Source of the DNA: Gammaproteobacteria bacterium
GTDB taxonomy: Bacteria; Pseudomonadota; Gammaproteobacteria; Pseudomonadales; Litorivicinaceae
DNA: 32,294 bases
Direction: 5' to 3'
Assembly (NCBI GenBank): GCA_009922705.1
Contig: RFUY01000006.1
Coordinates: 1 to 32,294 of the forward strand
The notes under the pieces were generated by a model. It was not told the origin of the DNA. It ran no database searches and saw only the letters and a program-made list of their open reading frames with translations. Each line of letters opens with the position of its first letter. Positions within the stretch are counted from its first letter, which is position 1. Positions 7,394-9,548 of the stretch are shown here, in pieces. The position numbers and the translations under genes are program-made.

Positions 7394-7897
7394 ATGTCAA
7401 TCGCCCAAGCGCAGTCGCGCCTTCGTGAGTCACTCAGTAAATGTGGCGCATTGGTGGCGCTGGCGGATCGGGTCGAGACTCGCCTCGACCGACATGCGGT
7501 GGATGAGGCAATTCTTCATCAGATTGGCGCGACATTAGTAGCGCTATGCCAAACCATTGCCGAGTCGCATGGCATCAGCGCTTCGACAGTGCAGGGTTTG
7601 AGTAGTTTGCAGTCAACCTTGCGTGCGCGGCAGCTCACCTCTGTCGAAGCTGATTTTTTGGCGCGCGAGGCCTTAGCTGACGGTGGATGGTGGCCGCTGT
7701 GGCAGTCAGAATTAGAGCGAGTGATGCAGCCCAAACCGCTCGCCAAATCGGCGCCTGCGTATGGCCTGATCGGCTCAGACCGATCTGAGGCTTCTGATCC
7801 GGGATTACTGGCTGCTAGAGACACGCACTATCGAGCGTGGGTTGATGCTCTGCGCGGATTAATTCAGACGGTAGAGTCCACTCTGCTCGAGGCTTAA
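7394..7897 (+). CDS. Small soluble protein between topA and lexA, DUF6586-like
   Basis: This 167-residue protein is predicted soluble and largely helical, with no signal peptide, no membrane span and no recognisable catalytic motif. Its ATG follows the topA TAA without a gap, so it is very likely translated from the topA message. In Pseudomonas-type genomes the position between topA and lexA is held by a small protein of the DUF6586 family. Position and size fit, but I cannot confirm homology by eye. It converges with lexA, and the two reading frames overlap by 4 bp (7894-7897), leaving no room for a separate terminator. Confidence 0.75.
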   Translation: MSIAQAQSRLRESLSKCGALVALADRVETRLDRHAVDEAILHQIGATLVALCQTIAESHGISASTVQGLSSLQSTLRARQLTSVEADFLAREALADGGWWPLWQSELERVMQPKPLAKSAPAYGLIGSDRSEASDPGLLAARDTHYRAWVDALRGLIQTVESTLLEA

Positions 7898-8523
7898 GAC
7901 AGTTGGGTGCGAATCACCCCAACGGCAAGCCCTTCAATCATCAGTTGCTCCGGATCCCGAACTTCAATTGGGGGGTAGGCTGGGTTTTCTGCGATCAACA
8001 GTACGCGTGTTGGCTCAATCCGTAATCGCTTGACGGTCACTTCCCCGTCCACACGCGCAACGACGATGTCGCCCGTATTTGCATCGCGCCGCTTAAGGAC
8101 TGCGAGTAAATCACCATCCAAAATCCCGATCCCTTGCATCGAGTCACCACGAACAGTTAACAGATAGTCTGGTCGTGTGGCGAACAACTGTGGCTGTACA
8201 GGAACAATGCGCTCAATGTGAGCTTGGGAATCAATGGGCAAGCCGGCAGCGACACGACCGATGACGGGGAGGCCAATCTCTTGTGCCTCGGGCTCGTCGA
8301 GGTCAACCAGGCATTGAATGCCACGGGATGCACCATTGTGTAATCGAATCGCGCCACGACGCTCAAGCGCACGTAAGTGGGATTCTGCGGCATTCACCGA
8401 GCGGTACCCTAGGGCAGTCGCAATTTCAGCGCGAGTGGGTGGACGTCCATCCGTGCGGATTGCATCTTGGATCATCTCAAGCACGCGTGCTTGCGCCTTG
8501 GTGAGTCGAATCTCTGCGGTCAT
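7894..8523 (-). CDS. lexA: SOS regulator LexA, self-cleaving repressor
   Basis: LexA represses SOS genes and cleaves itself when stimulated by RecA filaments on single-stranded DNA. The 209-residue protein has the winged-helix DNA-binding domain (RPPTRAEIATALGYRS, then SHLRALERRGAI, residues 27-60). The self-cleavage site Ala93-Gly94 is in GRVAAGLPI, and the catalytic dyad is Ser128 (RGDSMQG) and Lys165 (EVTVKRL). All functional residues are present. The gene lies 22 bp behind argF on the same strand. A near-consensus LexA box ends one base before the ATG, which indicates autoregulation. No Shine-Dalgarno sequence precedes the ATG. Family alignment (LTKAQARVLEMIQD near the N-terminus) still supports this start. 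Confidence 0.97.
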   Translation of the reverse strand: MTAEIRLTKAQARVLEMIQDAIRTDGRPPTRAEIATALGYRSVNAAESHLRALERRGAIRLHNGASRGIQCLVDLDEPEAQEIGLPVIGRVAAGLPIDSQAHIERIVPVQPQLFATRPDYLLTVRGDSMQGIGILDGDLLAVLKRRDANTGDIVVARVDGEVTVKRLRIEPTRVLLIAENPAYPPIEVRDPEQLMIEGLAVGVIRTQLS

Positions 8524-8524
8524 G

Positions 8525-8540
8525 CTGGATAAATTAACAG
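8525..8540 (-). promoter_or_regulatory. LexA (SOS) box of lexA
   Basis: The minus strand reads CTGTTAATTTATCCAG, which matches the gammaproteobacterial SOS consensus CTGT-N8-ACAG at all but one conserved base and has the usual AT-rich centre. It ends one base before the lexA ATG and covers the candidate -10 element. LexA bound here would block polymerase at lexA. Confidence 0.8.
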
Positions 8541-8558
8541 TCTTTTCAGAGATTGCAA
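8531..8558 (-). promoter_or_regulatory. Candidate lexA promoter giving a leaderless transcript
   Basis: On the minus strand TTGCAA (8553-8558) and TAATTT (8531-8536) are separated by 16 bases. The -35 element lies within the last codons of argF and the -10 lies within the LexA box. Transcription would start about 7-8 bases beyond the -10, at 8523-8524, which is the lexA ATG itself. This is inferred from sequence only. Confidence 0.45.
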
Positions 8559-9481
8559 CCGATCTCTGAAATCTGCCCGAGGATCAAATACTCCATCAGG
8601 GCCTTTTGTGCATGCAGGCGGTTCCCGGCTTGTGTCCAGACCCATTTGGTGCGCGGGTCATCGAGCAGCGTGGCACTGATTTCCTCACCACGATGCGCTG
8701 GAAGACAGTGCAGGAACATGACCTCATCGGACGCTTTTTCCAAGAGTGATTCAGTGACTTGAAAGGGAGCGAGCGCGGCGCGACGCTCTCTGATCTCGGC
8801 CTCTTGGCCCATGCTCGCCCAGACATCTGTGGTGACCACCTGCGCACCTTGAACCGCGGCGACGGGGTCTGTGGAAAACTGCACTCGGCCCTGTCCGAGC
8901 GCAACCCAGTGTGGGTCAGGTTGGTAGGCAGAAGGTCCGGCAATGACCAGATCAAAGCCAAACAGACCGGCTGCCTCACAATAGGTTTGGCACACATTAT
9001 TGCCGTCGCCAATCCAAGCTACCTTTAAGTCTGCGAGTTGACCGAACTTTTCAAGCATTGTTTGGAGGTCTGCTAGGAGTTGGCAAGGGTGACAACTGTC
9101 ACTCAACCCATTGATCACGGGGATGTTGGAATACTGCGCGAAGGTTTCGAGTTTATCGTGCCGGTCAGTCCGAATCATGACCGCGTCGACCATCTCGGAG
9201 AGGACGCGCGCGGTGTCTGAGAGCGGTTCTCCGCGACCGAGTTGCGTGTCTGCTGGAGACAGGAAAATCGCTGTCCCACCGAGCTGATGAATCCCCGCCT
9301 CGAAACTCACACGAGTCCGAGTTGATGATTTTTCAAAAATCATTGCTAATACACGCTGTGGCAAGCTCAACACCGGACGACGCTGCTGATGGACATTTTT
9401 TAATGCAGCCGCACGCGACAGCACTTGAAAGTGCGTCGGTTGATCCAAATCGTTCAGAGTGAGAAAGTGTTGTGTTGCCAT
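8546..9481 (-). CDS. argF: Ornithine carbamoyltransferase
   Basis: The enzyme makes citrulline from ornithine and carbamoyl phosphate in arginine synthesis. The 311-residue protein has the carbamoyl-phosphate motif STRTR (53-57), HPCQLLADL (131-139), and the ornithine-site segments DVWASMGQE and HCLPAHRGEE (from 258). The track starts at 9487 (MCMATQ...), but the second ATG at 9481 is better spaced from the upstream GGA, so I use it. The isolated single gene and its length fit the anabolic enzyme rather than an arginine-deiminase operon enzyme. It is divergent from grxD, with 67 bp between starts, and 22 bp upstream of lexA. No arginine-regulator site is obvious. Confidence 0.96.
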   Translation of the reverse strand: MATQHFLTLNDLDQPTHFQVLSRAAALKNVHQQRRPVLSLPQRVLAMIFEKSSTRTRVSFEAGIHQLGGTAIFLSPADTQLGRGEPLSDTARVLSEMVDAVMIRTDRHDKLETFAQYSNIPVINGLSDSCHPCQLLADLQTMLEKFGQLADLKVAWIGDGNNVCQTYCEAAGLFGFDLVIAGPSAYQPDPHWVALGQGRVQFSTDPVAAVQGAQVVTTDVWASMGQEAEIRERRAALAPFQVTESLLEKASDEVMFLHCLPAHRGEEISATLLDDPRTKWVWTQAGNRLHAQKALMEYLILGQISEIGCNL

Positions 9482-9548
9482 GCACATGTTCCAGCAAAGC
9501 GGTGCAGTGTAGCATTGGACTCCCCATCAATCGAGATAGAGAACCTTC

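Follow-up and report, generated by a model that had tools for sequence, protein, structure and literature searches.

A predicted leaderless lexA gene with overlapping LexA box, promoter and start codon in Litoricola

We propose that the SOS repressor gene lexA of the marine bacterial genus Litoricola is probably transcribed from a sigma70-type promoter with an extended -10 element that lies inside a single LexA box, yielding a leaderless mRNA whose synthesis is shut off by LexA itself. The promoter, with TGtTAATTT inside the box, would start the RNA on the A of the ATG or about one base away from it at most, and ribosomes would initiate on the 5'-terminal AUG of this mRNA, for which no Shine-Dalgarno sequence would be needed. 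LexA bound to a 20-bp operator would span the -10 element and the start site up to the first base of the start codon, a direct form of autorepression, and DNA damage would free the promoter through RecA-stimulated self-cleavage of LexA. The unlinked SOS gene dnaE2 appears to be built likewise. The control region that is usual for lexA in the order (two operators, a leader and often a ribosome site) appears compressed to about 20 bp, an element in which repressor site, -10 element, predicted transcription start and start codon overlap, and which recurs at dnaE2 and at the lexA genes of other families.

Operator, promoter and start codon at lexA

The window (the whole stretch of 32,294 nucleotides that was analysed) comes from a Litoricola MAG of 2 Mb in 366 contigs. 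It carries on the minus strand a gene (7894..8523, 209 aa, ATG at 8523-8521) that is lexA, encoding the SOS repressor with its DNA-binding and S24 peptidase domains: the product matches TIGR00498 (202.7 bits, cut-off 110.95) as well as PF01726 (from residue 6) and PF00717, both above their gathering scores, and shows 87% identity in a comparison with the lexA of a Litoricola sp. MAG. The upstream neighbour on the same strand is argF (encoding ornithine carbamoyltransferase, 8546..9487, TIGR00658 and NF001986 above cut-off), which ends with a TGA at 8548-8546. Past lexA, the plus strand carries topA and a weak DUF6586-like gene. The residue of the window LexA that aligns with Glu45 of E. coli LexA appears to be Ser (RSVNAAESHL).

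Across the start of lexA the minus strand reads ...GGTTGCAATCTCTGAAAAGACTGTTAATTTATCCAGC directly followed by ATGACCGCAGAG. The LexA box CTGTTAATTTATCCAG (8525..8540, minus strand) has one mismatch to CTGT-N8-ACAG and ends 1 nt before the ATG, the single base in between being a C (8524). Written as a 20-bp operator, the predicted site is GACTG-N10-CAGCA (8523..8542, minus strand), the last base of which is the A of the ATG; most relatives have TACTG...CAGTA, and the 20-bp consensus of E. coli LexA is TACTG-N10-CAGTA. CTGT-N8-ACAG is found at 19 sites in the window genome versus 25 for a reversed control, and because the motif is no commoner than this control its frequency alone was not used as evidence; it is the position of the box that is informative.

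Inside the box, TGtTAATTT (8531..8539, minus strand, hexamer TAATTT at 8536-8531) was the best sigma70-like site in the scan. Judged by its hexamer TAATTT is a weak -10 element, with three of the six consensus bases, yet it fits TANNNT and is preceded by the extended TGn element. It is separated by 7 nt from the A of the ATG, and the transcription start predicted from the -10 spacing is this A or the preceding base (8523..8524, minus strand). A -35-like TTGCAA (8553..8558, minus strand) stands upstream at a spacer of 16 nt and lies inside the 3' end of argF, as the C-terminus encoded by the window argF is 7 codons longer than that in G020, the nearest relative, and extends into the lexA promoter (8546-8580). 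TTGCAA is common only to the window and G020; the other members have TTCCNN or TTCACA at a spacer of 17, and the predicted -35 element of the lexA promoter is weak in most members. No Shine-Dalgarno match of at least 4 was found within 20 nt of the lexA ATG in the window. A sequence-only reading of the window had already noted the near-consensus box one base before the ATG, the missing Shine-Dalgarno sequence and the arrangement TTGCAA-N16-TAATTT with its start at the ATG, and its coordinates for these features hold.

Conservation of the lexA and dnaE2 starts in Litoricola

The window genome and 21 further genomes of the genus were compared, and lexA was recovered in 18. The genomes without a detectable lexA (G004, G010, G012 and G014, with a completeness of 60, 68, 91 and 87%, respectively) all carry dnaE2 with a box, so that lexA is probably absent from these assemblies rather than from the organisms. 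In all 18 lexA genes exactly 1 nt separates the box from the ATG, which is itself invariant, and the block before and at the start codon reads ACTG[ATG]TAATTT[AG]T[TAC]CAG[TC]ATG. Thirteen of the 16 box positions show no variation across the 18 genes, a conservation among related genomes and as such not independent evidence; in 40 lexA codons counted from the LTK motif, the third position varies in 40 of 40 and the nucleotide identity goes down to 61%.

TAATTT is invariant in all 18 genes, ends 7 nt before the ATG, a distance within the roughly 5-9 nt expected for the -10 element of a leaderless gene, and carries the TANNNT mark of a leaderless gene, which in its published in-silico form is a TANNNT about 10-12 bp before the start. 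Among the sigma70-like sites within 160 nt, the -10 element in the box (-13 to -8) ranks first in 17 of the 18 genes (window included) and second in the remaining one. The AT-rich bases that count towards the promoter score are also those of the box, so that conservation of the box alone would raise this rank. None of the 18 genes has an upstream Shine-Dalgarno match of at least 4. Between the predicted promoter and the ATG there is no room for a leader with a ribosome site, and none was found in the 18. The argF-lexA junction, which the sequence-only reading had proposed to compare in relatives, revealed neither a conserved alternative start nor a conserved Shine-Dalgarno sequence and kept its box-ATG geometry constant. 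With this geometry fixed in relatives and a second SOS gene of like design, the comparison supports the leaderless message that had been suggested, and with a 20-bp operator ending on the A of the ATG it also supports a repressor that would cover the -10 element, the start site and the first codon.

This second gene is dnaE2 (encoding an error-prone polymerase), which is not linked to lexA. In the window genome, CTGTATAAATAAACAG sits 1 nt before the ATG of dnaE2 (L214:394-1293, i.e. G000:C291:6393-7292, minus strand), and the distance from box to ATG is 1 nt in 19 of the 19 genus genomes that have dnaE2. The usual start region is CTGTATATAATTACAG-T-ATG, with a TATAAT that ends 6 nt before the ATG (a weaker TATAAA in the window genome), and the region from -60 to -20 is variable. 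The best NCBIfam match of the window-genome dnaE2 is PRK05672 (residues 2-279), as a fragment below the full-length cut-off; its frame breaks after 300 aa and resumes in another frame, the genes of relatives being open over about 1050 aa, and the break is either an assembly frameshift or a broken gene. Searching the 22 genomes with CTGNWWWWWWWWNCAGNATG (an AT-rich box followed after 1 nt by an ATG) returned 33 matches, all at lexA or dnaE2, of which one is a palindrome already matched and read again on the other strand; the control pattern returned 0 matches in the same 22 genomes.

Predicted LexA boxes are present and conserved at lexA, recA, dnaE2 and umuD of Litoricola. The one of recA is distant, and recA has a Shine-Dalgarno-like AGAAGGG. 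The boxes of lexA and recA (recA upstream regions L047-L063) often have the form CTGA...TCAG, and that of dnaE2 retains CTGT...ACAG. We also observed a single LexA box between the divergent umuD gene, with the Shine-Dalgarno sequence GGAGG, and an RNase J-family (beta-CASP) gene (L215:1-1078 in G000:C29, and near 171372 in G020:C6). The ATG of the RNase J-family gene is 3 nt from this box and has no Shine-Dalgarno sequence, and judged by this layout it may be a third gene of the same kind, which would place RNase J under SOS control.

Alternative readings of the lexA start

The orientation of argF, directly upstream of lexA and on the same strand in 18 of the 18 genomes, is what one would expect if lexA had a leader that works independently of a Shine-Dalgarno sequence. 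The message would then come from an upstream promoter, either by read-through from argF or from within argF, ribosomes would load on the unstructured RNA of the box, for instance via ribosomal protein S1, and the box would serve as a roadblock or control a minor promoter. The RNA of the box is indeed AU-rich, and starts without a Shine-Dalgarno sequence do occur in G020: in a survey of this genome (796 kb, with a home-made gene finder covering about 76% of the sequence) 71% of the genes had a Shine-Dalgarno match and about 29% had no match of at least 4. We nevertheless consider this explanation improbable, as the argF-lexA distance varies between clades (22 nt in the window, 43 nt in G020 and 36 nt in the other 16 genomes), no better conserved promoter is found in the 160 nt upstream of lexA, and dnaE2 has the same layout and yet a different, freely drifting upstream region. 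The sequence-only reading had left open translation through argF read-through, and the three distances give no support to a conserved mechanism of this kind. Among the 16 genomes that share the 36-nt gap, the last 18 upstream positions include 15 that are invariant versus 0 of the 10 just before them; the sequences being related, the Fisher value serves as a guide only. A gap that is constant in 16 of 16 despite a drifting middle is as a fixed spacing between -35 and -10 elements would give.

A promoter slightly further upstream, in the ATACTG or GATAAT register, would produce a leader of 3-15 nt without a Shine-Dalgarno sequence, i.e. a nearly leaderless message. We regard this as very unlikely: a GATAAT (5/6) does overlap the box in members with an A at box position 4, and a TATACT precedes the box in L013 and L015, but these hexamers vary (position 4 is A, G or T, and the window has GTTAAT and AAGACT), whereas TAATTT is invariant. 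Hardly credible is an erroneous start annotation, with LexA beginning downstream (e.g. at the ATG of codon 17) or further upstream behind an ordinary ribosome site, for although a simple start picker that rewards Shine-Dalgarno sequences took an internal ATG in G020, variation over the 10 codons that begin at the LTK motif is that of coding sequence (third positions in 10 of 10, second positions in 2 of 10), the match to the LexA DNA-binding domain runs from residue 6 and would lose its first helix with a start at codon 17, and upstream in-frame starts are unconserved, with an in-frame stop 24-63 nt upstream. Start-codon callers that rely on Shine-Dalgarno sequences can misplace lexA starts.

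The leaderless reading of lexA does not extend to the genome at large. TANNNT signals in G020 peak roughly 21-35 nt upstream of starts; the leaderless layout seems special to a few genes and not a genome habit in G020, and leaderless genes seem to be rare in the genus.

Known leaderless genes and other gammaproteobacteria

The E. coli lexA promoter has two LexA boxes, a leader and a Shine-Dalgarno sequence; its -10 element lies inside a box, and the gene is autorepressed. Litoricola lexA has in common with this type the kind of box sequence, the -10 element in the box and, as predicted here, autorepression, but differs from it in having a single box, placed 1 nt from the ATG, and neither a predicted leader nor a Shine-Dalgarno sequence. 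A leaderless lexA is already known as a kind, since tagging and a frameshift mutation showed that LexA of M. tuberculosis is translated from a start codon that coincides with the transcription start site (PMC2897130). That evidence is experimental, whereas for Litoricola we infer leaderlessness from sequence; moreover, M. tuberculosis is an Actinobacterium, a group in which leaderless messages are common, and the likeness drawn here concerns leaderlessness.

E. coli translates messages with a 5'-terminal AUG, and such messages bind 70S ribosomes. Two repressor genes, lambda cI and tetR, both translated from a 5'-terminal AUG in E. coli, served as leaderless standards in one study (PMC4965119). 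These are genes of a phage or a transposon, whereas Litoricola lexA is a chromosomal SOS regulator. Their operator geometry also differs from that of Litoricola lexA. According to a survey, leaderless genes of gammaproteobacteria belong mostly to the Xanthomonadales and Legionellales, and they seem to be rare in most gammaproteobacteria. Our literature search, with most subscription journals outside its scope, returned no description of such an arrangement at lexA or dnaE2 in gammaproteobacteria and no paper joining leaderless messages, lexA and the LexA box, or Litoricola and the SOS response.

Elsewhere in the order, a box was present in 87 of the 91 lexA upstream regions surveyed, and 66 of these regions had at least two boxes. 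The distance from the nearer box to the ATG is 5-15 nt in 44 of the 91 and at most 4 nt in only 4, namely in two f24 genomes (no Shine-Dalgarno sequence) and two f7 genomes (AAGG). The lexA gene of the sister genus has the Shine-Dalgarno sequence AGAGGA (L019 and L021). Wider pattern searches covered 369 genomes of the class and 392 of the order, and matches other than lexA or dnaE2 were discarded after reading. In f24 (3 genomes), f212, f208, f77 and f184 we found a lexA that has its box 1-3 nt from the ATG, lacks a Shine-Dalgarno sequence and carries TATAAT, TATATT or TATAAA ending 6-8 nt before the ATG; in f184 this near-ATG promoter scores just below a site that overlaps the ATG, and f77 has a further TATAAT, 22 nt before the ATG, with almost the same score. 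A similar dnaE2 occurs in f97, with the box 1 nt (G353) or 4 nt (G457) from the ATG. The lexA genes of f68, f56 and f110 were ambiguous and were left out of the count. A phage search for relatives of LexA yielded nothing relevant.

One could go further and regard Litoricola as having a dedicated leaderless SOS module, in which lexA and dnaE2 alone share the fused element of operator, promoter and start codon, and in which synthesis would depend on 5'-terminal AUG (70S-type) initiation, making SOS autoregulation and mutagenesis dependent on ribosome state, with similar lexA fusions having arisen several times in the Gammaproteobacteria. We offer this wider idea tentatively and hold it to be rather doubtful. 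The genes described here provide a natural collection in which one could ask if the timing and the depth of the SOS response are influenced by leaderless translation.

The lexA genes of f7 and f201, with a box 2-3 nt from the ATG, were not counted, their best promoters lying 28-90 nt upstream and, in f7, an AAGG occurring inside the near box. This AAGG of f7 (L194 and L195) stands 7 nt before the ATG and makes operator and ribosome site overlap, which is another compact solution.
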